Positions 6,418 to 36,154 of a stretch of DNA of 64,000 bases are shown in pieces (the first letter of the stretch is position 1; every line of letters starts with the position of its first letter). The notes beneath the pieces were generated by a model. That model made no database searches, was not told the origin of the DNA, and worked only from the letters and a program-made list of their open reading frames with translations. This DNA is from Marinobacter shengliensis (GTDB lineage Bacteria > Pseudomonadota > Gammaproteobacteria > Pseudomonadales > Oleiphilaceae): positions 248,001 to 312,000 of the forward strand of contig NZ_PXNO01000023.1 in the NCBI RefSeq assembly GCF_003007715.1, in the 5' to 3' direction. A program made the translations under genes and the position numbers.

Positions 6418-6960
6418 ATGCCCAAGCATTTCGAACAGGCGCCGGGGCTTTACGACGCCCCGATTCCCGAGACCGAAGGTTACGTATTCAACCAGACCAT
6501 GATGCGCATCAAAGAGCCCGAGCGCTCCATGGACTTCTACACCCGCGTGATGGGCATGCGCCTGGTGCGCAAACTGGACTTCCCGGAGATGAAGTTCACC
6601 CTGTATTTCCTGGGCTACCTGGATGATAAACAGGCGAACTTTGTGCCACACGACGACGCCCACCGCACCACCTTCACCTTTGGCCGGGAAGCCATGCTGG
6701 AGCTGACCCACAACTGGGGCACAGAAGATGACGCAGACTTTGCCTACCACAACGGCAATGACCAGCCCCAGGGCTTTGGTCACATTGGTGTGGCCGTGCC
6801 AGATGTGTACGCGGCCTGCGAACGTTTCGAAAAGCTGGGCGTGGAGTTCGTGAAAAAGCCGGACGACGGCAAGATGAAAGGCCTGGCCTTTATCAAAGAC
6901 CCGGACGGCTACTGGATTGAAATCCTGCAGCCGGACATGCTGGAGAAACAGCGCAAGTAA
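6418..6960 (+). CDS. gloA: lactoylglutathione lyase (glyoxalase I)
   Basis: Converts the hemithioacetal of methylglyoxal and glutathione to S-lactoylglutathione. The 180 residues match the longer, eukaryote-like form: a single-chain VOC fold with [19 protein letters not shown] near the N terminus, ELTHNWGTE in the middle, [12 protein letters not shown] (metal-binding His) and [12 protein letters not shown] (metal-binding Glu) at the end. The ribosome binding site is modest (AAGGA about 10 bases upstream). It follows the alkB terminator and is convergent with the transporter downstream, so it is likely transcribed alone. Confidence 0.93.
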
Positions 6961-6984
6961 GGTTGGCTTGGCAAAGCCCCGGCG

Positions 6985-7929
6985 TCAGTCTGAGCGACTG
7001 TTGCCGGGAGCGTTGCCGTAACGGGAAGCCACAATAACCGCAATGGTCAGTATCAAAGCCCCGGTAATGCCGATGGGCCCCAGCACCTCCCCCAGAATCA
7101 ACCAGGCCAGAAGTGCCACAAACAACGGTTCCAGCGTGACGATGATGCTGGAAAGCGTGGCCGGAGTGGTCTTCATACCCGCGAAGAAACACAGGTAGCC
7201 AATACAGGTCGGCACCACGCCGATGTACAGCACCATCAACCAGTGGGAAAGTCCCAGGCTGGCCAGCCCGGCAAAGCCACCGGTAAAGGCCACCACTGGC
7301 AGCAACAGAAGGGCGGCGGTCAGAAAGCAGATAAAGGCGGTGGTGAACACCGGTGTGCCAGCGGAATTGTAGCGGCTGGTGAGGGTAAAGCCGGTGTACA
7401 CGGCAGCTGCCAGCAACGCCATCAGAATGCCGGCAAGCCGCAGGGTGCCGGCGGTGTCCATATCACTGGCCACCAGCATGCCGGTGCCGAGGATGGCCGC
7501 AAACGCCGCCGCCAGTGTCAGCGGGCCGGGTTTTTCGCCCAACATGGGTGCCGCCAGAATCGCCACCAGGACTGGCGGCAGGCACAGGGCGATCAGCGTG
7601 GCAATGCCCGCACCGGTCAAGTCCACCGCCACCAGATAACTGCCCTGATAAAACGCCTGGAACAACCCCATTGCGGCCAAAGGCAGTAACGCCTTGACGC
7701 CGAGCCCCCTCAGGGAGCTGCCCGGTACTTTCTGGCCGGGGTGCTGCAATGCCAATTGCTGCTGTTCCCGCCGCATCAACAGGTAGAAAAACGGCAACGC
7801 AACCGCCAGGCGCAATAGCGCAAGCGTAAGGCCGGCCAGCTCGGTGCCGGTAAACAGGAACTTGGCAACAATGCCGGTGGTGCCCCACAGCAGGGCGGCA
7901 AACGCGATGAGTAAAGCGCCATGAATCAT
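6985..7929 (-). CDS. EamA/DMT-family transporter
   Basis: Drug/metabolite-transporter superfamily permease with about ten hydrophobic segments in two EamA repeats. The first begins LLIAFAALLWGTTG, the second around LAGILMALLAAAVYTGFTL. The substrate cannot be told from sequence. I place the start at 7929 (MIHGALLIAF), which begins directly at the first membrane helix; a GTG at 7983 would add 18 mostly hydrophobic residues, and neither has a good ribosome binding site. It is convergent with gloA and about 110 bp downstream of the ComEA-like gene. Confidence 0.85.
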   Translation of the reverse strand: MIHGALLIAFAALLWGTTGIVAKFLFTGTELAGLTLALLRLAVALPFFYLLMRREQQQLALQHPGQKVPGSSLRGLGVKALLPLAAMGLFQAFYQGSYLVAVDLTGAGIATLIALCLPPVLVAILAAPMLGEKPGPLTLAAAFAAILGTGMLVASDMDTAGTLRLAGILMALLAAAVYTGFTLTSRYNSAGTPVFTTAFICFLTAALLLLPVVAFTGGFAGLASLGLSHWLMVLYIGVVPTCIGYLCFFAGMKTTPATLSSIIVTLEPLFVALLAWLILGEVLGPIGITGALILTIAVIVASRYGNAPGNSRSD

Positions 7930-21395: not shown

Positions 21396-21921
21396 CTAGG
21401 CGGCATGCTCGCCCTATAAAACAATGTGCGAGATCGGCACCGACTGCGGGCATGAGCATACAGCGAAACCTACTGACCAAAGTCAGGGGCGCACGCAATT
21501 TGTAGTGAGAACGAATGCTTTGTCTGAATTTCAGATTGACTGGATATATAATTTGATCAGCGTCTACTAAATTCTCAGACTTATTTTGGATGGGGGGCGC
21601 TGAACTCTGTCTCATCAGACCTGAGCTGCAATGTAGGTCAGGTTTAGATCACGACGAACCAAAAGATCACCTGCACTCTGAAAGTATCGATTTTATTTGA
21701 AGAAAGGGTTGCTAATCTCGTCCAAAATCCATCCCCGGATTTCTTGATCCGGCGCCATCCATAAAAAATCTTCGCTCATGCTCGAGCTAAAATCTTAACA
21801 ATATGGTTGAAATTCCGCTCATTTTTAACTAAAAGTGGGCGTTCCTCACTTCTGGCAGATTGAGTTGATAGAGGAGAGTTTTAAGAAATTCGTGAGAATG
21901 GATGCCCGAGGGAAAATTTTT
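21396..21921. other. gene-free border between urt operon and island
   Basis: About 525 bp with a fall in GC content. A weak hairpin (near 21397-21414) may end the urt transcript. I found no convincing gene, tRNA or att-like direct repeat; an open frame running from 21835 into the SIR2-like gene is probably leader. This is the left border of the accessory region. Confidence 0.5.
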
Positions 21922-23109
21922 ATGGCCGAGACAGTTCACAATCCCGATCAATACATGTATGACTTCAAGCATATCATTAGTAGCGGTCGAAAGAGAATTG
22001 GCTTGCTAATTGGTGCCGGCGCACCTGTTAGCATTGATGTAGGAGAGGGTTCATGGAGGCCTCTAATTCCGGATGTCGCCGGCCTGACTAAGGTCGTAAA
22101 AAGCAGTTTAGAAGGAACAGATTTTGAAGTATTTGAAAAAATAGAAAATTCAATACCTGGAAGCAATATAGAACTGGTGCTTTCTCGTGTCCGGTCTTTG
22201 GCTGAGGTGATCGGAAATTATGAGGTTGGAGGTCTCGATTCATCAGGTTACACCGCGCTATCAGAGAAGATATGTAATAAAATAAAGGATGTAGTCGGAG
22301 TTAATTTGCCAGAAGATGAGAATCCATACTCACTAATGGTCTCTTGGATTAATGGTATAAACAGAAGTCATGCAGTAGAAATTTTCACGACAAATTATGA
22401 CCTTCTGCTAGAAGAGGCTATGGAGAGAGCTCGTACACCGTATTTTGATGGGTTTTCCGGATCAAGAGTGGCCTTTTTTGATCCTTCAAGCATATCCAGC
22501 AATGACCTACCTCCCAGGTGGGTTCGCTTATGGAAAATTCATGGCTCAATAAACTGGTCAAAGAACTTGGTTGGTGAGGTTGTACGAGGGGTCGGAAGTG
22601 ACGAAGGAACGATGGTTTACCCATCTCATGTAAAATATGATCAAACACAGTCAGCTCCATTTTCATCTCTTTTTGAAAGACTAAAAAGCTTTCTATTAGA
22701 GCCCGATAGTCTTCTCCTAACCTCGGGATTTTCATTCGCGGATGCTCACATTACTGCAAAATTAGATGAGTGTTTGGCTGAGAATGCATCCGCCTCTATC
22801 CTAGCCTTTCAATTTAAAACTATTGATCAAGAAGAGCCGGCAACAAAGATCGCAATGCGTCGACCAAACATTAGCGTTTACTGTTCGGATGGAGCGATAA
22901 TAAATGGAGTGAAAGCTCCTTGGAAACTTGGAGACTTGCCAGCTAGAAACTGGGAAGTAATACGTGATGAGTATTGGGAAAATAGTAAATTTATTTTGGG
23001 CGACTTTAAGGCGTTCACCAAGTTTTTAGCTCAATCGAGTGGTGGAAAGACAGCATCACCATTTCTTGATGGTGTCGATTCCTTAGACAAGGTTGGCGAA
23101 GATGAGTAA
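21922..23109 (+). CDS. SIR2-like NADase of a SIR2-HerA defence pair
   Basis: 395 residues from ATG 21922 (MAETVHNPDQYMYDF), preferred because GAGGGA precedes it; starts at 21898 (ATG) and 21835 (GTG) are also open. SIR2-fold landmarks: LLIGAGAPVS (NAD-binding glycines), EIFTTNYDLLLEEAM (the conserved TTNYD), LWKIHGSINW (catalytic His) and a later GFSFADAHI. Such proteins degrade NAD+ when activated by phage. Its last 8 bp overlap the herA-type gene, the arrangement of the Sir2-HerA (Nezha) anti-phage system. The sequence is AT-rich compared with the core genes, which fits horizontal transfer. Confidence 0.88.
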   Translation: MAETVHNPDQYMYDFKHIISSGRKRIGLLIGAGAPVSIDVGEGSWRPLIPDVAGLTKVVKSSLEGTDFEVFEKIENSIPGSNIELVLSRVRSLAEVIGNYEVGGLDSSGYTALSEKICNKIKDVVGVNLPEDENPYSLMVSWINGINRSHAVEIFTTNYDLLLEEAMERARTPYFDGFSGSRVAFFDPSSISSNDLPPRWVRLWKIHGSINWSKNLVGEVVRGVGSDEGTMVYPSHVKYDQTQSAPFSSLFERLKSFLLEPDSLLLTSGFSFADAHITAKLDECLAENASASILAFQFKTIDQEEPATKIAMRRPNISVYCSDGAIINGVKAPWKLGDLPARNWEVIRDEYWENSKFILGDFKAFTKFLAQSSGGKTASPFLDGVDSLDKVGEDE

Positions 23110-24877
23110 TCGCGTTAACCCTACCTACTTGGGGGAAGTCGTTTCTGTGTCTGGAGCTTCGGTTACTGTCCGATTAACTCCACAAGTTAAATCAGGCTTA
23201 TTGATGATCGAGGGTAGGGCACATCGAATTGGCCAGGTTGGAAGTTTTATTAGAATACCTCAAGGTTATAACGATCTTTACGGCGTTATATCGGAAACTG
23301 GCGAGTCTGAAGGTTCGAATAATAGTGGCAATGATAATTGGGATCGACGTGTTGTAAAAGTAGAGTTGGTCGGTGAAGGGATAGGGGATGAGTTTGAAAG
23401 AGGGATAAGTCAATTTCCAAGTATTAGGGATGAGGCTCACCTCGTAACAGAAACCGATTTGAGAAGAATATATGGAAATAATGAAGACGGGCAGGTATTA
23501 GTTGGGAAGCTTTCTAGTGCAGATAGTATAAGCGTTGGAGTGAATCTTGACAGTTTAGTTAACCGTCATTCAGCAATATTGGGATCGACCGGCTCCGGTA
23601 AGTCGACAAGTGTATCGAGCTTGCTTCGGTCTATAGTGTCGAATGATCAAGATGTAATAATAAAGCCCTCAGCTCGTATTGTCCTTTTCGATATTCATGG
23701 TGAATATTCGTCTGCACTACGTGACGTTTCATCTGTTTTCTCTATTAACCCTTCTGGCGACGAGAAAGATCTGGTAATCCCTTATTGGTGTATTTCTCCA
23801 GATAAGCTGGTAGATTTTTTATGTGGCGGTCACGAGGGGGTGAAAAATAAGTTCTTAGACTTAGTAGTAGTTGAGAAGCAAGAATTTATTGTTTCTAATA
23901 ATATTAAAATGGATCCCCACAAGGTTACGCCGTACACGCCAGTTCCATATAGAATCAAGAAAATTTGGTACGATCTTTACCATGAAGACAACGTTAATTG
24001 GAACGAAAAGCAGAAGCTTACCCCGGCATATTTGAGCGAGGGTGATTTCGAAACACTCGAGGCCCCGACATTCAGGCCACCTAACACCTCCAATGAATCT
24101 TTGTCTGTAAAGGGAGGGCCTCAAGTTTGGAAGAAACAGCTTGAGCTTATGCGTTCACGCCTATTAGATGCTCAGTTCTCCTTCTGTCTTTCCCCGGGAC
24201 CTTGGACTCCTGATAGAGAAAACCAAGTTGAGAGAGGTTTGGCGGATTTAATCTCTGATTGGATAGGCGATAAATCTCCGATTACGATTTTGGATTTGTC
24301 GGGGATGCCCGAAGCCCGACTTGATTTGCTCCTAGGGTCGATGTTGGATATCTTATTTGAGGCAGCTGTCTGGGGGAGAAGGTTCTCAGGTGGCATGAAA
24401 GATTTACCTCTTTTACTGGTAATGGAAGAAGCGCACCGGTACTTGGGCAATGAAAGCAATGGTGTTTCAAAGGACATGGTTAGGAGGATCGCCAAAGAAG
24501 GTAGAAAATTTGGAGTTGGCGCAATGCTGGTCAGCCAGAGACCTTCAGAAATCGATGAAACAATCCTCTCTCAGTGCGGTACCTTGATGGCTCTGAGAAT
24601 CAATAATGCGGCTGATCGAAATCGAGTTAAGTCGGCTATGTCAGACGGTTTGTCTGGGATAGTAGACAGCCTCCCAGTTTTGAGGACAGGTGAAGCGATC
24701 TTAACCGGTGAGGCTGTTACTCTTCCTATGCGTTGCAGGTTTAAAGTTCCGAAGGATGGCAGATATCCAGATAGTAAGGATCCCGAGGTCTCGAAAAGCT
24801 GGGCGAGAGATTATAAAGAAGTGGATTTTTCAGTGCTTGTAGATTCTTGGGTTACACAAATATTAAATAATAAGTAA
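23102..24877 (+). CDS. HerA-like ATPase of a SIR2-HerA defence pair
   Basis: 591 residues from the ATG at 23102, which overlaps the SIR2-like stop. An N-terminal HAS-barrel-like region (YLGEVVSVSGASVTVRL, IGQVGSFIRIP) precedes a HerA/FtsK ATPase with Walker A GSTGSGKST, the HerA motif LFDIHGEYSS, Walker B LLLVMEEAHRYLG and sensor region GAMLVSQRPSEIDETILSQCG. HerA proteins form hexamers that move along or unwind DNA; in defence they assemble with a SIR2 or nuclease partner. AT-rich, like its partner. Confidence 0.9.
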   Translation: MSNRVNPTYLGEVVSVSGASVTVRLTPQVKSGLLMIEGRAHRIGQVGSFIRIPQGYNDLYGVISETGESEGSNNSGNDNWDRRVVKVELVGEGIGDEFERGISQFPSIRDEAHLVTETDLRRIYGNNEDGQVLVGKLSSADSISVGVNLDSLVNRHSAILGSTGSGKSTSVSSLLRSIVSNDQDVIIKPSARIVLFDIHGEYSSALRDVSSVFSINPSGDEKDLVIPYWCISPDKLVDFLCGGHEGVKNKFLDLVVVEKQEFIVSNNIKMDPHKVTPYTPVPYRIKKIWYDLYHEDNVNWNEKQKLTPAYLSEGDFETLEAPTFRPPNTSNESLSVKGGPQVWKKQLELMRSRLLDAQFSFCLSPGPWTPDRENQVERGLADLISDWIGDKSPITILDLSGMPEARLDLLLGSMLDILFEAAVWGRRFSGGMKDLPLLLVMEEAHRYLGNESNGVSKDMVRRIAKEGRKFGVGAMLVSQRPSEIDETILSQCGTLMALRINNAADRNRVKSAMSDGLSGIVDSLPVLRTGEAILTGEAVTLPMRCRFKVPKDGRYPDSKDPEVSKSWARDYKEVDFSVLVDSWVTQILNNK

Positions 24878-26686: not shown

Positions 26687-27931
26687 TTACCAGAAAAAGC
26701 TGACGCCGAAGGCGGCCAATGCTCCACCTACGAACGCTCCGACGCCAACGCACACGGGCGCACCCGGTCCGCAGGCCAGCCCCGCGATAGCACCACCGGC
26801 CATCCCGCCCCCAATTCCAGCCCCCGTAATCGCTGCTTCCTGGGTGGCGGCCTCAACCTTGTCTTCAGCATTTGAAATGCGGTAGATCGACAGCCCGAGA
26901 GAAAGTACGATCAGGCCCTTTCCAGCGTTAGAAAGCCTGCGCATCGTCGCCGATACTTTAGGGTTGGATTTGCCGGCAGACTCGACGATGGCTCCGTAAA
27001 CGGCTTGTTGCTGAGAGTTCGTCAGCGCCTGGAAATTGGTACCACGGCCGAACAGCTGTTGTGTCTTGCGCCCGATCAGCTCATTGAGTGTCTTGCCTTC
27101 ACTTTTGATCTGCTGTGCCAATGCCCGCCCGACTGGCGTACTCCTCCCACGTATCATATCCATGATGAGGTTGCGTGCTTCTTCTGCCTGCCCTGCAGCT
27201 TGTCTCCAGGTAATGCGTCCTGACATTGCTTCAGTGCGCAGCTCGTCTGCCATGCGCCGTATTTGCTGTGCGTATGCCTGCCGAGCCTGTCCGTCAATGG
27301 TGGCGTGGGTTCCGATATTTGCTATTTCAGCTTCCAGAGCACGGATTGCACGTTCAAAAATTTCCCGGTCAGAACTCTCTTCCGTTGAACTAGCGGCTTC
27401 TGGAGTGGTGTGGCTGGCCGCTGGTGTGGCCTGACTGCCCGGCCGTTCACTCGCAGCGGGGTTGGCGGTATGGCCTTCTTGATCAGAGCCCGCTGTTGCG
27501 ATTGGGCCGGGAGCAGAGGCTGAAGTGCTATCGGCCTGTAATGAACTTGCTTGATTGGCACGGGAGTATGTTTGCTTGTCGGTAGGGCTTGAGCGTACTG
27601 GCGCAGGAGAAATCCCGGAAAAAGAGGCAGGCGAATATGTATCACCAATCACAACACTACCACTACCAATCGTCACGCCACCGCAACTGACGGTGCTTCC
27701 GGTAACGGCTGCCGGGATGCCGTTGATCAACACGGTTGAAGAACCTGATGCGATAGCACGAGGGTGCGGTGGGTGCTTGGGCTTGGAGTGAGGGGCGAGT
27801 GGATCTCCAACGCGGGCAACTGGCTTGCCATCAATCAGCACATCAGACGAGCCGGCAATCACCGGGGTTGGTGGAAATCCGTTGTGGTCCGTGCCCATGT
27901 CGCCGAGCAAGACGACTTTTTTTCCGCTCAT
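26687..27931 (-). CDS. PAAR-domain type VI secretion effector, glycine-zipper C terminus
   Basis: 414 residues from ATG 27931 (MSGKKVVLLGDMG), chosen because AAAGGA precedes it. An N-terminal PAAR domain (about 1-95: DHNGFPPTPVIAGSSDVLIDG, GSSTVLINGIPAAVTGS, GSGSVVIG) forms the sharpened tip of a T6SS spike. A Ser/Ala/Pro-rich linker (about 100-200), a helical region, and a C-terminal Gly/Ala-rich hydrophobic tail (AAITGAGIGGGMAGGAIAGL, then GVGAFVGGALAAFGVSFFW) follow. The tail resembles glycine-zipper membrane segments, suggesting a membrane-acting toxin. No T6SS structural genes are in the window, so it is an orphan cargo gene. Confidence 0.82.
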   Translation of the reverse strand: MSGKKVVLLGDMGTDHNGFPPTPVIAGSSDVLIDGKPVARVGDPLAPHSKPKHPPHPRAIASGSSTVLINGIPAAVTGSTVSCGGVTIGSGSVVIGDTYSPASFSGISPAPVRSSPTDKQTYSRANQASSLQADSTSASAPGPIATAGSDQEGHTANPAASERPGSQATPAASHTTPEAASSTEESSDREIFERAIRALEAEIANIGTHATIDGQARQAYAQQIRRMADELRTEAMSGRITWRQAAGQAEEARNLIMDMIRGRSTPVGRALAQQIKSEGKTLNELIGRKTQQLFGRGTNFQALTNSQQQAVYGAIVESAGKSNPKVSATMRRLSNAGKGLIVLSLGLSIYRISNAEDKVEAATQEAAITGAGIGGGMAGGAIAGLACGPGAPVCVGVGAFVGGALAAFGVSFFW

Positions 27932-28096
27932 GCTTGTTTCCTTTATCTTCCTTGATGACTGCAGTGCTGGGGATTGGTATAGCACTGCGAGCTTTCCTTT
28001 CAGTCACGCCGTTCCATCGCAACCGGTGGAAGTCTATCAAGACGCGGCGGGCTGTCAATTTGACTGATGATTAGTAAACCTGAAACAGACCTGTAT

Positions 28097-30491: not shown

Positions 30492-32015
30492 GTGCAAGAG
30501 ATTGATTTTAGAGATCGCTTTTCAATTGAACGTCAATACAACCGTGGGGCAGGCACCGCTGATCCCGCTCAGTTCAAACTGACTGCCTGTGGTATTGAAA
30601 AAATCGAGAATCAGCTGGAAAGTGATCGCGGGAGGATCATTAACTCTGCCGCCGTTCGCCGCTTACAACAAAAGACACAGGTATTTCCGTTGGAGCGTAA
30701 TGCTGCTGTCCGAAGTCGTTTAACGCATTCTCTGGAAGTACAACAAACCGGCCGCTTCATTACGCGGAAGATCTACGAAAAACTCGGTCGAAGGGCTGAG
30801 GAATTTGGGCTACAAGGGCTGAATAGAGCGTTTGAAACCTTGGTTGAGATGTCTTGCTTGATGCACGACATCGGCAATCCACCCTTTGGCCATTTCGGTG
30901 AAGCTGCAATTTCTCGCTGGTTTGCTTCTAATCTAAACGAACTCACACCGTTTAAAGAGATCAATGAAACCGAAGCCTTCAAACAAGAGCTCGCGTCGGA
31001 ATTGTGTTCATTTGAAGGCAACGCTCAGGCCATTCGTCTAATCAGTCGGCTACAAAAGCTGAATTTGACCTATGTTCAGGTCGCGTCCGTTTTCAAGTAC
31101 ACGCGCAGGGCAACGGAGGGCAAGCCAGAAAGCGATGAACCATTGGCGTACCTGAAGAAGAAGCCTGGATATTACTTCTCTGAGTCGTCGTTTGTTGAGC
31201 GAATGCAAGCGTCTTTGGGAATGGAGTCCGGGTGTCGCCACCCGTTGGCATATGTCATGGAAGCTGCAGATGATATCTCCTATTGCCTTGCCGACCTGGA
31301 AGACGCCGTCGATAAGGGAATCATCGACTATGAGACTCTAGCGGCCAAGCTTAAGTCAGCATTTGCTCAGGTCAGGCCGTTGGACTATCAGAAGGAGCAT
31401 TTCGCTAATTTTGGGCAGAGAAACTCATTCGATCAACTAGTGGATGAGGTGCTTGAAAGGGCCGAACGAGAAGACATCAATCCTGAGCATGAATTTTTTG
31501 TCTGGTTACGGGTAAAGCTGATTCATCCCCTTGTTAATCATGCGGCGGAAGCGTTCATCGATAACATTGATGAAGTGTTTCGCGGTTGTCTGAATCGTGC
31601 CCTTCTGGAAGACAAGTCGCCATGCCACAGTGTTATCAAGGCTTTCAAAACGGTTGCCTTTGACGAGGTCTTTTCTTTTCCTGAGGTTCAGACTCTGGAG
31701 CTGCAGGGCTATCGGATTATCTCCGGGCTGCTTGAATTCTATCGCCCGTTGTTGGCTCTGGGTAAAAGTCAGTTTGACTCACTTACTGAGGGGAAAAGCG
31801 GGAATTTTCTCGTGGAGAGCCGGTTGTTTCAGCGGTTGCCTGCTAAGCACGTGAAGGCTTACAGGACCATGAGGAATGAAGCTCCTGCTGATATCTGTGA
31901 ACCATTGTGGGAGTTTTATTGCAGATGCCGCCTGATCCAAGACATGGTTAGTGGCATGACAGACCAATTTGCTTTGGATGAATTTCGTACCCTATCCGTT
32001 CTGGATGGGAAGTGA
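30492..32015 (+). CDS. dgt: deoxyguanosine triphosphate triphosphohydrolase (dGTPase)
   Basis: Releases triphosphate from dGTP. 507 residues, close to E. coli Dgt (505). HD-domain ligands are in RLTHSLEVQQTGR (first His), LMHDIGNPPFGHFGE (the HD pair) and MEAADDISYCLADLEDA (last Asp). The start is GTG at 30492 with GGAG 9 bases upstream. dGTPases can protect against phage by lowering dGTP. Its place in a defence-rich island, 300 bp before the QueC-like cluster, suggests that role here, though it may equally be a housekeeping copy. Confidence 0.88.
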   Translation: MQEIDFRDRFSIERQYNRGAGTADPAQFKLTACGIEKIENQLESDRGRIINSAAVRRLQQKTQVFPLERNAAVRSRLTHSLEVQQTGRFITRKIYEKLGRRAEEFGLQGLNRAFETLVEMSCLMHDIGNPPFGHFGEAAISRWFASNLNELTPFKEINETEAFKQELASELCSFEGNAQAIRLISRLQKLNLTYVQVASVFKYTRRATEGKPESDEPLAYLKKKPGYYFSESSFVERMQASLGMESGCRHPLAYVMEAADDISYCLADLEDAVDKGIIDYETLAAKLKSAFAQVRPLDYQKEHFANFGQRNSFDQLVDEVLERAEREDINPEHEFFVWLRVKLIHPLVNHAAEAFIDNIDEVFRGCLNRALLEDKSPCHSVIKAFKTVAFDEVFSFPEVQTLELQGYRIISGLLEFYRPLLALGKSQFDSLTEGKSGNFLVESRLFQRLPAKHVKAYRTMRNEAPADICEPLWEFYCRCRLIQDMVSGMTDQFALDEFRTLSVLDGK

Positions 32016-32312: not shown

Positions 32313-32705
32313 ATGGGAAGCTCGGGCTCGGGTCATTTTTCAGACTATCCAGGTACGAAAGCAAAAGTAGTCACTGGAGATGGAACAGGCATGGCAGGCG
32401 GTGCCAGCGGCGTCGACAAATGCAAGCAGGCATTTCATGTTTTGCTCGATGATGTTGGTAATAGTGACTTCTATTCGCAGTTTAATAATGTTCCAGCGGT
32501 TGGCGCTCAACTGGCCATTATTTTTGACACGAAACGTGTCTTTGCAGTCGATATGAATGGAGTTAAGGTTGGAGCGCTTCCAACATCATTCAATTATCTA
32601 GTAGCGTGCCTCGAAGACGGGGTGACTTATGTTGGTTTGGTAAGCTCCTCCGCAGCCTCGCCCGTCCCCACTGTCGCTGCCGACTTCGTGGCCCAAGAGG
32701 CATGA
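32313..32705 (+). CDS. small protein with MGSSGSG N terminus; candidate QueC-like substrate
   Basis: 130 residues, family not recognised. It begins MGSSGSGHFSDYPGTKAK: a flexible, glycine-rich N terminus with Gly at position 2, exposed after methionine removal. Glycine-rich starts of this kind occur on partner proteins of QueC-like defence enzymes (type IV CBASS and QatB-type proteins), where the N terminus is, to my knowledge, the site of deazaguanine attachment. The rest is a small alpha/beta domain (FHVLLDDVGNSDFY, AQLAIIFDTKRVFAVD). First of four genes that overlap as ATGA. Confidence 0.72.
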   Translation: MGSSGSGHFSDYPGTKAKVVTGDGTGMAGGASGVDKCKQAFHVLLDDVGNSDFYSQFNNVPAVGAQLAIIFDTKRVFAVDMNGVKVGALPTSFNYLVACLEDGVTYVGLVSSSAASPVPTVAADFVAQEA

Positions 32706-34033
32706 CCCAGACGGATGTTGTCCTAATTGTTGGCGAGCTAGTCGTGGACTATACGCTGAATCAGCGTGGCGTGATGTCCAAACTTCGTTTAGGGGGCGTC
32801 AGTCATGCGGCAAGGGGATTATGGGCGGCTGAACTTGAATATTCGGTGGCAGCTTTTTGCCCGCAATACCTAGTTGACGAGGCAAAGCGCTACCTTGCGG
32901 AGCTTGGGTGCCAAGAGTTCATCTGGCTTGGTGACGTAGTCGGCGCGCCGAACGTTATCCTAATCGGTGACGTGACCGAGGTTTCACACCAAGGTTACGA
33001 GGACTTGATGCGCGATACCAAGGTAGTGACATTTCATGCCCCGTTACCGCAACTCGACACATATGAGAAGATCGTTGTCTTCCCGGGCGGGTTCGATATG
33101 AACACACTCGCCAGCATGTTTTCTGAGGAGGCACGATTCTCATTCGACATCGCGTACGATCTAGAGGACCTCTCATCGCTCGATGCGTTCAGAGGTCGCG
33201 TGGAGGCAGTGATTATCTCGACATCATCCTCCTTGTTTCTGAGGCTTGGAAAGGACAGTGTCGACGATCTGCTCGAGACGATAAAGAGGCTTTCGCCAGA
33301 CGTATTTCTGCTCAAAGAGAATCGTGGAGGCAGTCGCCTCTTTGACGTGCGAAATAACAGCGTCGAAGAGATACCGGCAACGCTGAGTCATACGGTCAAT
33401 TCAGTCGGCGTTGGGGATGTCTATTCTGGCGTAATGGTGGCCCTCTCTCAGAAGGGATGGACTGAAGCAGCGTGGCGCGGATGCCAAGCCGCTACTGTGT
33501 ACTCCCAATCAACGTTTCCCGACGATATCAAGCGGGATGTGCAGCGCGCGTCCCGACTCTCGTTGGAGGTGCTGCAAGCTCTGGGTGGCACAATGCTCCC
33601 ATGGCATGACCGCCAAAGCTATTCAATCTACCTTGCTGGTCCGGACTTCTCATATGTCGAAAAGCAAGAGCTTGATCATGCTGTGGATAGCCTCATATAT
33701 CACAATTTCCGGGTTCGGCGTCCCCTCTTGGAGAATGGAGAGTTAAAGCGGCCCGCTAGCGAGGGAGACCTTCGTCTAACATATCAGATGGACTGTCAAT
33801 TGTTACGGGAATGCGACGTTGTCTTCGCGATTCCTCTCGACCGCGATGCTGGCACGCTCGTTGAACTAGGCATGGCAATCGAAATGGGCAAGCCTGTCAT
33901 CACCTACGATCCTCGGCGTGAAAATGAGAATACGATGGTGGTTTCCGGAAGTTCAGTATACTCGTCTAACCTTGATGTCTGCCTCAATGGCACGTTCAAA
34001 GTTATCGCTAAGTTGAGGGCTGAATCGCGATGA
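32702..34033 (+). CDS. PfkB-family kinase fused to nucleoside 2-deoxyribosyltransferase
   Basis: 443 residues from ATG 32702, which overlaps the previous stop. Residues about 1-315 are a PfkB/ribokinase-like sugar or nucleoside kinase, with the early glycines in LRLGGVSHAARGLWAAE and the catalytic Asp in NSVGVGDVYSGV (canonical GAGD region). Residues about 328-443 are a nucleoside 2-deoxyribosyltransferase: SIYLAGPDFSYVEKQEL, CDVVFAIPLDRDAGTLVELGMAIEMGKPV, with the nucleophilic Glu in GTLVELG. The combination implies handling of a (deoxy)ribonucleoside, perhaps supplying or salvaging a modified base for the QueC-like enzyme. I do not know this fusion from described systems. Confidence 0.8.
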   Translation: MTQTDVVLIVGELVVDYTLNQRGVMSKLRLGGVSHAARGLWAAELEYSVAAFCPQYLVDEAKRYLAELGCQEFIWLGDVVGAPNVILIGDVTEVSHQGYEDLMRDTKVVTFHAPLPQLDTYEKIVVFPGGFDMNTLASMFSEEARFSFDIAYDLEDLSSLDAFRGRVEAVIISTSSSLFLRLGKDSVDDLLETIKRLSPDVFLLKENRGGSRLFDVRNNSVEEIPATLSHTVNSVGVGDVYSGVMVALSQKGWTEAAWRGCQAATVYSQSTFPDDIKRDVQRASRLSLEVLQALGGTMLPWHDRQSYSIYLAGPDFSYVEKQELDHAVDSLIYHNFRVRRPLLENGELKRPASEGDLRLTYQMDCQLLRECDVVFAIPLDRDAGTLVELGMAIEMGKPVITYDPRRENENTMVVSGSSVYSSNLDVCLNGTFKVIAKLRAESR

Positions 34034-34650
34034 AGAACGCGCTCCTTTTGGCCTCTGGCGGCCTGGACTCGACAACTGTTGCATATCAGCTCGCGGACGC
34101 AGGCGTTGAGGTTGTACCGATCTTTTTTGACTATGGACAACATTGCGTAGACATAGAGTGGGATCGTGTAAACGAAGTTCTACCCTCCGATATGCATCGA
34201 CCTGAGCGTTTCAATATTTCGGACATCTTCCAAGGTTCGCAGTCGCGGCTAATTCGCGAAGCTGATCTCTGGACCGAAGAGGTTAAGGATGACGATTTGT
34301 ACATCCCGTACAGAACAATGCTATTCTTCGCCGCCGCTGCGGCGCGAGCGCAGACTGTTGGTGTTCTGGATGTCTACACTGGGTTCATCAACAGTAACCA
34401 CGCCAAAGAAATTGACTGTACCGCCGCGTTTATGGACAGCCTTGACGGGCTTACTTCGAGTATCGGTCCCGTGCGATTTCACTCGCCGTTCCGCTATTCT
34501 TCCAAAGCCGATGTGGCTAGGGCGGCTGTTGAGCTTGGCGTACCAATAGGACGAACATACTCGTGCCAAGCCTCCGCGAAATTTCCGTGTGGTGCTTGCC
34601 CGAACTGCGTTGAACGCCTGAATGCATTGAAAGAGGCTAAGTTGGTATGA
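34030..34650 (+). CDS. QueC-like 7-cyano-7-deazaguanine synthase family protein
   Basis: 206 residues. The PP-loop SGGLDSTT (about 10-17) binds ATP for activating a carboxylate; the C-terminal zinc site C-x7-C-x2-C-x2-C (SCQASAKFPCGACPNC) is complete. It is shorter than housekeeping QueC (about 230) and lacks neighbouring queD, queE or folE. Defence-associated QueC homologues (Cap9 of type IV CBASS, QatC) use the same chemistry on partner proteins. Starts by ATGA overlap with the fusion gene and ends by ATGA overlap with the glycosylase gene. Confidence 0.87.
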   Translation: MKNALLLASGGLDSTTVAYQLADAGVEVVPIFFDYGQHCVDIEWDRVNEVLPSDMHRPERFNISDIFQGSQSRLIREADLWTEEVKDDDLYIPYRTMLFFAAAAARAQTVGVLDVYTGFINSNHAKEIDCTAAFMDSLDGLTSSIGPVRFHSPFRYSSKADVARAAVELGVPIGRTYSCQASAKFPCGACPNCVERLNALKEAKLV

Positions 34651-35297
34651 CTAGTTCCGCCATCGAGGTGTTGCTCGTAGCACGTCGCATCGCCAACCGC
34701 GCGAAGGATGAAGGCGTGCTCTTTGAGGAGAAACACCCACGTGCTACCTGTGAGCATATGGGAGCCGTTCTTGCGGATTCGGTGCTACAGGCAGGGCTTA
34801 ATTACACGACGGTTGTGCGCCCACGGGTACTAGCCATTCTTAGGGGGCACCCGGATCGCCACACTATTTCCTCATTGGTCTCGTTGATTCAGAGCGGTCA
34901 GGCCGGTGCATTCTTGAATTGGCGTCATCACCAGAAGGTGAGGCGTTTCGAGGAACTAGTAACATTTTTACAGAAATGGGGAGTCGAGGATGTGCACGAT
35001 TTGTGTGCGTGTTTGGCATCCGAAGAGTTCTGCAATGCTGTTCAAACCGTCAGAGGTATCGGCCCTAAGACCGTAGATTATATGGCGTGCCTTGTCGGCG
35101 TTGACTCCGTTGCAGTTGACCGCCACGTTCGTACTTTCGCAAAAACTGTTGGTGTTGAGAATGATGACTACCACTTTCTGCGTGCGTCATTTTGCTGTGC
35201 TGCTGATCTCCTATCACTTCCACGCCGGGAGTTTGACGCCTGGCTCTGGCGTCGGGCCGCAGAGCCGACTCGGACGCAGTTGGCTCTAGTAGTCTAG
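34647..35297 (+). CDS. HhH-GPD-type DNA glycosylase-like protein
   Basis: 216 residues. The helix-hairpin-helix and catalytic region reads VRGIGPKTVDYM ... SVAVDRHVRTFA: the Lys of GPKT aligns with the lyase lysine of endonuclease III/OGG1, and the Asp of AVDRH with the catalytic aspartate, so a bifunctional glycosylase/lyase is possible. No iron-sulfur cysteine loop is present. OGG-like proteins accompany QueC-like genes in type IV CBASS. Last gene of the four-gene overlapping cluster; a REP-like unit follows 20 bp later. Confidence 0.82.
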   Translation: MTSSAIEVLLVARRIANRAKDEGVLFEEKHPRATCEHMGAVLADSVLQAGLNYTTVVRPRVLAILRGHPDRHTISSLVSLIQSGQAGAFLNWRHHQKVRRFEELVTFLQKWGVEDVHDLCACLASEEFCNAVQTVRGIGPKTVDYMACLVGVDSVAVDRHVRTFAKTVGVENDDYHFLRASFCCAADLLSLPRREFDAWLWRRAAEPTRTQLALVV

Positions 35298-35460: not shown

Positions 35461-36154
35461 ATGCCAAGGCAGGCCAGGGTGATTGTGCCCGGTTTTCCCC
35501 ACCATATTGTCCAACGCGGTCATAACCGCCAACCTGTGTTCGTAGAGCGCCGCGACTTTGAGTACTACCTCGCAAACCATTCAGGAATGGAAGCAGGTCT
35601 ATGAGCTGGAGGTGTTCAGCTATTGCCTGATGACGAACCATGTTCATCTAGTCGTTCAGGCAAACGACAATCCGACCGCAATCCCTCAACTGATGAGGCG
35701 TCTGGCTAGGCGTCAAACGCGCTTTGTAAATTCCCTCGAAAAACGCAGTGGTTCTCTCAGGGAAGGTCGCTACAAGATTAGCCCGATTGATACTGATGCC
35801 TACCTGTTGGCTTGTTGTCGCTATGTGGAGCTCAACCCTGTTAAAGCAGGGATGGTGGATAAACCTGAGTTGTATGAGTGGTCGAGCTATTGTGCACGGG
35901 TCGGGGTGTCACATTGCCAATGGCTGGATGAACCCGACACCTTTCGGGCACTGGCAGGCAGTCACCAGATGAAAATTGAAGCCTATCGGAAGTTTGTTGA
36001 GCAGGAAGATGCTTCGTCGTCAGATGAATTGATTTGTACTGCAATCAATAGCAATAAACTGACCGGCGGCAACAAGCTCGTGGATGAAATTGAAAACCGT
36101 ATCGGTATCAGAGTTGAAACTCGTAAGCGCGGAAGGCCTGCATCTAAAAAATAG
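35461..36154 (+). pseudogene. RAYT-type Y1 transposase, single-base frameshift
   Basis: Starts MPRQARVIVPGFPHHIVQRG with AAGGAGG upstream and reads correctly to YYLAN (35577). The frame then shifts: continuing in the original frame gives a stop at 35602, while the family sequence resumes as IQEWKQVYELEVFSYCLMTNHVHL in the next frame. Removing one base at about 35578 restores a full-length protein of about 230 residues ending GRPASKK. The HUH motif (NHVHLVV) and the catalytic Tyr region (CCRYVELNPVKAG) are intact. These enzymes move REP sequences, and REP-like units flank this one. A recent mutation or a sequencing error would both explain it. Confidence 0.85.

Follow-up and report, generated by a model that had tools for sequence, protein, structure and literature searches.

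Does a compact run of four overlapping genes, which sets a QueC-like enzyme beside a fusion of a PfkB-like kinase domain with nucleoside 2-deoxyribosyltransferase (NDT), a DNA-glycosylase-like protein and a small protein with a glycine-rich start, belong to one of the known QueC-family immune systems, or is it a system of its own? The question is raised by a 64,000-nucleotide stretch of the Marinobacter shengliensis genome (assembly GCF_003007715.1, contig NZ_PXNO01000023.1, positions 248,001 to 312,000; hereafter the window), in which the four genes (hereafter the cassette) occupy positions 32313–35297 of the + strand. The cassette is a real, mobile and conserved unit, rare and found across several bacterial phyla; its best reading is that of a further QueC-family protein–nucleobase conjugation system beside type IV cyclic-oligonucleotide-based antiphage signalling systems (CBASS) and Qat. 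It consists of the following genes:

32313–32705, + strand: SmG, a small protein of 130 aa with a predicted flexible MGSSG tail (approximately residues 1–36) and a predicted HIRAN-fold domain (residues 37–130); proposed substrate of the QueC-like enzyme
32702–34033, + strand: PfkB-like kinase domain fused to NDT, 443 aa (Pfam NDT, E = 3.8e-16)
34030–34650, + strand: predicted QueC-like ATP-dependent ligase, 206 aa (Pfam QueC, E = 4.5e-32), with Cap9-like motif spacing
34647–35297, + strand: HhH-GPD/OGG-like glycosylase, 216 aa (PADLOC OGG, E = 7.7e-8), with Lys141 and Asp158

The open reading frame (ORF) coordinates bear out the original prediction that these genes are joined by ATGA overlaps at all three junctions. 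GGAGGG is found ahead of the first ATG (32313); a scan for promoters and terminators at the cassette returned signals at or below chance level. Relatives were gathered with the QueC-like protein, whose alignment was scanned against 84,980 species genomes with two peptide patterns; the resulting 94 loci comprise 14 loci on viral contigs and 80 of the 102 genome relatives, and the locus counts are therefore lower bounds. The 94 loci include near-identical ones (63 groups at 93%), and residue conservation was counted on distinct rows, with the window added. All four genes, whose co-occurrence in other genomes the original prediction had named as a check, are present in 85 of the 94 loci, with gene order and strand constant; taken individually, SmG was found in 90 loci, the PfkB-NDT fusion in 93, and the glycosylase in 89. 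Five of the ten missing genes fall at contig ends (SmG in L032, L070, and L081; the glycosylase in L024 and L027), and a deletion in L082 accounts for another two. In three Bacillaceae loci (L090, L094, and L098), the PfkB-NDT fusion and the QueC-like protein form a single frame of 656–660 aa. A reverse search with SmG matched 14 viral contigs, all 14 of which carry the QueC-like gene. According to record titles, hosts of the cassette include alpha-, beta-, and gammaproteobacteria, Bacteroidota, Bacillota, and a TM6 bacterium, as well as metagenome-assembled genomes (MAGs) labelled Deltaproteobacteria and one Acidobacteriota MAG; some loci lie on viral contigs and others on plasmid records. 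SmG was absent from all 273 other genomes of the class, and the QueC-like protein of the cassette was found in one of the 97 relatives searched, namely the host itself (463.6 bits, as compared to 83.7 bits for the next genome). Searches of phage records with SmG and of E. coli genomes with the Kosakonia locus returned no match.

SmG is opened by MG[S/T] in all 89 complete proteins (VG in two, which have a GTG start), the 90th being cut by a contig end; in distinct rows, G2 is found in 84/84, S3 in 83/84, and M1 in 82/84. The linker varies, with none of columns 13–28 reaching 93% conservation. Of the conserved MGSSGSG start originally proposed, the MG[S/T] core thus stood, while the full motif proved too narrow. 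An AlphaFold2 model of SmG (mean pLDDT 80, a per-residue confidence score) presented values <50 for residues 1–5 and 10–33 and mostly >90 for the domain, predicting a flexible, disordered tail ahead of a confidently modelled domain. All 11 Foldseek matches of this model at E ≤ 0.001 were to the HIRAN domain of HLTF (best E = 1.8e-4), and VIA-align gave Z scores of 11.5 for lp_0118 (3k2y), 9.8 for HLTF HIRAN, 8.7 for Rad5, and 7.7 for the C-terminal part of HamB (Hachiman), with the next unrelated chain at 4.8. By its predicted structure, SmG is a HIRAN-fold protein; it has this fold in common with the HIRAN domains of HLTF, Rad5, and the HamB C-terminal domain but differs from them in sequence (~14% identity, no Pfam HIRAN match) and in standing alone with an N-terminal tail. 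Pfam, NCBIfam, and PADLOC assigned no family to the window SmG, Pfam gave two weak unrelated matches and nothing else for 12 SmG relatives at E ≤ 10, and a sequence search of the PDB with the SmG profile returned one S-layer match (E = 0.063). Two cysteines of SmG, C37 and C99, are invariant in 85/85 rows.

The best solved relative of the QueC-like enzyme is Cap9 (9nto, E = 3.5e-16 with profile A1), and the PADLOC QueC model matched it at E = 1e-23. Both its PP-loop (SGG.DS, 87–88 of 88 rows) and its zinc site (four Cys, 87–88 of 87–88 rows) are near-invariant in distinct rows, as had been claimed for the window protein. Its spacings, YxQ(x)5E, PF(x)4K, C-x-(x)6-CxxCxxC, and DCxxxF, equal those printed for Cap9 in PMC13329287. 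For Cap9, PMC13279940 describes Tyr115 as stacking on the base and Asp117 as reading its guanine edge; the guanine-edge Asp (Asp129 here) is kept in 88/88 rows of the QueC-like family. The protein scored 98.8 bits with the canonical QueC model (TIGR00364), under the cut-off of 150.3, and has EIDC in place of YPDC; a separate QueC (230 bits) is encoded elsewhere in the host genome. The glycosylase keeps the lyase Lys and catalytic Asp that the original prediction had pointed out (K141 and D158, 82/82 distinct rows); the window protein has no HhH-GPD match in Pfam, and a PDB sequence search with it found nothing better than E = 0.045. In the fusion, the kinase D239 (86/86 distinct rows) and the NDT E388 (87/87) are invariant. 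The PfkB half of the window fusion has no Pfam match; among relatives, the Pfam PfkB model matched L090 at E = 2.8e-4, under the cut-off, and L115 and L116 over it.

With fair confidence, we read these features as those of a protein–nucleobase conjugation system acting on Gly2 of SmG, and the cassette is probably defensive, directed against phages; we infer every chemical step, the identity of the base, and the defence role. Removal of the methionine from SmG would expose Gly2, and the QueC-like enzyme would adenylate a guanine-type base and join it to Gly2, in the manner of Cap9 in type IV CBASS. The NDT-PfkB fusion would supply or remodel the base by making or breaking a deoxyribose bond, perhaps also phosphorylating the sugar, and would handle this same base either before or after ligation; the latter version is attractive because TGT, NDT, and the glycosylase of OGG-bearing QueC systems all act on purine–sugar bonds, and in it the final load of SmG may be a nucleoside or nucleotide. 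Through its HIRAN domain, tagged SmG would reach nucleic acid, and there probably a DNA end; the HhH glycosylase would cut or reset the base–sugar bond, and the adjacent dGTPase, where encoded, may supply deoxyguanosine. More tentatively, the product may be a protein-linked nucleoside or nucleotide and not a 7-deazaguanine conjugate, that is, a deoxynucleoside-derived guanine-type base on Gly2 of the HIRAN protein, with (deoxy)ribose and perhaps phosphate, which would be directed to DNA and removable by the glycosylase.

The base used by Cap9 is 7-carboxy-7-deazaguanine (CDG). Hosts of 50 of the 80 genome loci were examined for QueD, and 30 for QueC and QueE. A QueD-family gene was found in 35 of the 50 hosts, most of which are drafts or MAGs, and was not found in the other 15, which include several drafts and one complete genome (L109). 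In all 15, the sole full-length QueC match was the cassette's own protein, with coordinates agreeing with the cassette, and the Bsubt_queE match was ≤38 bits, as compared to ≥43 bits in 11 hosts with a canonical QueC. By these searches, the cells of the 15 hosts probably make no CDG of their own, suggesting that the base used by the cassette may not be host-made CDG; in such hosts, the cassette may draw on a different guanine-type molecule or on CDG brought in by a phage.

The surroundings of the cassette in the window include four further features:

30492–32015, + strand: dGTPase, 507 aa (NF003429, 636 bits; cut-off 405), a frequent but non-universal neighbour and probable accessory
21835–24874, + strand: SIR2-like gene with a HerA gene, 7 kb upstream of the cassette; pairs of this type are known defence systems
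26690–27985, − strand: PAAR-motif protein, possibly type VI secretion cargo, whose C-terminal part is long
35558–36151, + strand: REP-associated tyrosine transposase (family match), directly 3′ of the cassette

The window dGTPase gene ends 297 bp upstream of the cassette. A dGTPase gene lies ≤600 bp from the cassette, on either side and either strand, in 12 of the 94 loci (8 of the 63 groups), and dGTPase is the most recurrent family among 936 flank genes; by a rough Poisson estimate assuming two dGTPase genes per 4 Mb, 0.44 groups would be expected (P = 2e-8). These dGTPases belong to different subfamilies, and the one in the window was matched in 3 of 61 same-genus genomes, its own included. 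An obligate role for dGTPase in the cassette was rejected, since adjacency is confined to those 12 loci. dGTPases release deoxyguanosine, a natural NDT substrate, and the neighbour therefore fits a guanine-type base other than CDG; it could just as well be one more defence gene. In L082 (Bradyrhizobium, 6459–7004), the N-terminal part of a dGTPase joins the last PfkB-NDT codons, a deletion scar that marks another dGTPase-adjacent cassette. No empty site was obtained, because the candidate, a same-genus dGTPase locus (L131), has only the dGTPase in common with the window. The GC content of the window is mostly 0.45–0.56 between 24 and 37 kb, lower than the 0.56–0.63 found beyond. AAA ATPase and PIN-like flank clusters were found in four groups each; in four Bacteroidota loci (L086, L091, L092, and L097), an AAA ATPase gene and a small PIN-like frame (named by eye) end 11–33 bp before the cassette.

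A sister family is provided by PF06508 Cluster 4, which Libby et al. 2026 (PMC13329287) placed beside PfkB-NDT genes, suggesting purine salvage in one sentence; no substrate protein or glycosylase is named for Cluster 4 in the accessible part of that paper. In 14/14 Cluster 4-type loci with upstream sequence, we identified a small protein starting with M[S/G/T]G directly before PfkB-NDT (start codons were chosen by this pattern, by eye where longer frames exist), and an OGG-like gene lies nearby in 10 of 15 such loci (the L117 glycosylase matched Pfam Ogg-HhH at E = 8.4e-13). The modelled small protein of L123 has the strand and helix order of SmG; its best Foldseek matches were lp_0118 and HLTF HIRAN (probability 1.00, E only 0.01–0.02, alignment of four), and two Cys, a Gly, and a Tyr match SmG. 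The cysteine pair is also present in six aligned Cluster 4-type small proteins (residues 39 and 100 in L123). Because Cluster 4 loci have the same build, the combination of a tailed HIRAN protein, PfkB-NDT, QueC-like enzyme, and glycosylase is wider than the window family. Other observations on loci of this kind include a further HIRAN-like gene with its own PfkB-NDT gene behind the first such pair in L117 (5606–7146), whose NDT seems to be without the catalytic Glu, and a nitroreductase-like frame (named by eye) that recurs downstream of the Cluster 4-type QueC gene in L122, L123, and L124. In L115 (2895–3527), on a plasmid of the archaeon Haloarcula, a protein that has an MGGGG tail and a tandem pair of HIRAN-like repeats precedes PfkB-NDT and QueC-like genes.

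It is rather doubtful that the cassette carries out the chemistry of type IV CBASS unchanged, with the QueC-like enzyme attaching queuosine-pathway CDG to Gly2 while the PfkB-NDT and HhH proteins act elsewhere. Cap9 as the best solved relative, the invariant Asp129, and the 35 hosts with a QueD-family gene are consistent with this explanation, but the 15 hosts with neither QueD nor a canonical QueC found and a low queE score, one of them complete, speak against it, unless phages supply CDG, which would rescue it. It is also opposed by the stacking Tyr of QueC and Cap9 (YPDC) being Glu (EIDC) in 88/88 QueC-like rows, so that the base pocket differs from theirs; we dropped the idea that this substitution alone excludes CDG, since Cluster 4 has His and QatC has Thr at the same position, and take it to indicate a changed pocket only. 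The substitution is also among several observations that weigh against conjugation at Gly2 of SmG and a defence role. In the fusion family of the window, S-T-S-S stands in place of the PfkB NxxE motif, which makes kinase activity less certain than the original prediction implied; both catalytic residues that it had named in the fusion are kept. Pfam HIRAN had no match in 12 SmG members at E ≤ 10, so that the HIRAN assignment rests on predicted structure. The glycosylase is not universal, as no such gene was found in the three Bacillaceae loci named above (L090, L094, and L098), where no contig end intervenes. The defence genes around the cassette, such as the SIR2-HerA pair of the window, speak for a defence role, but the flank genes were tallied without a control set: among 142 of the 158 nearest (long genes were mostly left out), PADLOC matched dGTPase 8, AriA 7, PtuA 4, and PtuB 4 times, and Pfam matched HipA, AbiEii, and TIR twice each. 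Finally, binding alone could be reason enough for a disordered, glycine-rich tail to stay conserved. A further explanation, which we consider unlikely, makes the tail a linker or non-covalent handle; the target of the QueC-like enzyme would then be a nucleotide, a DNA base, or a small molecule, and the HIRAN protein would serve as the DNA sensor of a defence complex that modifies or excises bases. DNA binding is known for HIRAN proteins, the HhH protein keeps its active site, and tails rich in glycine are common, yet invariance is confined to the MG[S/T] tip and does not extend into the linker.

Two further explanations draw on the same genes and their setting. A nucleoside salvage operon, as suggested for purines in Cluster 4 (PMC13329287), would account for PfkB and NDT, both salvage-type enzymes, and for the dGTPase neighbours; it is nevertheless hardly probable given the sporadic distribution (at least 102 relatives in 84,980 species genomes), the viral contigs, plasmids, and defence neighbours, and the HIRAN and DNA glycosylase members, which have no salvage role. 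A toxin–antitoxin or other selfish stabilisation module of prophages or plasmids would agree with the mobile context and with HIRAN proteins having been reported as predicted HipA antitoxins (PMC11706625), but is very improbable for a set of four enzymes and partners with invariant active sites, no recognised toxin, and no small two-gene core.

In the open-licence literature, we found no description of the four-gene system, no HIRAN partner of a QueC-like enzyme, and no MG[S/T] substrate outside CBASS and Qat; only the adjacency of Cluster 4 and PfkB-NDT (PMC13329287) is already in print. New here, and absent from the original prediction, are the HIRAN fold of SmG, the recurrent dGTPase neighbour, and the cassette build shared by Cluster 4. 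If conjugation at Gly2 is correct, the cassette and Cluster 4 would extend this chemistry to HIRAN substrates and add enzymes of the base–sugar bond to it; if the protein-linked nucleoside is correct as well, the two families would together make up a large class of base-tagging immune systems that has gone unrecognised. Which base is attached can be asked sharply, and tested, in hosts where no CDG pathway was detected, and the proposed substrate, at 130 residues, is within reach of intact mass spectrometry.

Protein–nucleobase conjugation was reportedly first described in 2025, for type IV CBASS; to our knowledge, no activity of Qat has been reconstituted. The cassette resembles type IV CBASS in its QueC-like enzyme with Cap9 spacing, its glycosylase matching the OGG model, and the MG-start tail on the partner, and both have a base–sugar-bond enzyme family, TGT (the TGT-like Cap10) in type IV CBASS and NDT in the cassette. 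While the substrate in type IV CBASS is a CD-NTase with an MGGS start, the cassette has a tailed HIRAN-fold protein and a PfkB-NDT fusion; it further differs by Glu at the Tyr of YPDC and by occurring also in hosts where no QueD/QueC pathway was detected. As had been anticipated, models for CD-NTase, TGT, KAP ATPase, and TatD matched none of the four cassette proteins, and TGT was not among the matches listed for 59 window ORFs (25 of 41 PADLOC families). Membership of type IV CBASS was therefore rejected. With qatABCD, the cassette has in common a QueC-family enzyme and a partner with a conserved glycine tail (MGTS in QatB), but it has no KAP ATPase or TatD match, its partner has a predicted beta HIRAN fold and not the alpha-helical one of QatB, and its QueC-like protein, at 206 aa, is without the extensions of QatC (~400 aa); with no QatA or QatD match and 12.9 bits for the QatC model (cut-off 280), membership of Qat was also rejected. 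The fixed four-gene order and the invariant MG[S/T] start, the two computational checks put forward in the original prediction, came out in favour of its proposal of a separate system, and the cassette is placed among QueC-family conjugation systems as a variant because it belongs to neither CBASS nor Qat and its chemistry is a proposal. Cluster 4, which is similar in its PfkB-NDT neighbour, its M[S/G/T]G-tailed HIRAN-like protein, and its frequent OGG-like gene, was not merged with the window family, as the QueC-like proteins are ~23% identical and differ in motifs: HADG there corresponds to EIDC here, and the zinc motif CH(x)5CxxCxGCxK to C179-Q-(x)6-CxxCxxC; likewise, the Cluster 4 tail reads [S/G/T]G where SmG has G[S/T], and Cluster 4 PfkB keeps NxxE. 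With protein deazaguanylation (NDG) systems, the cassette shares the glycine start on the partner protein, which SmG presents in all 89 complete N termini.

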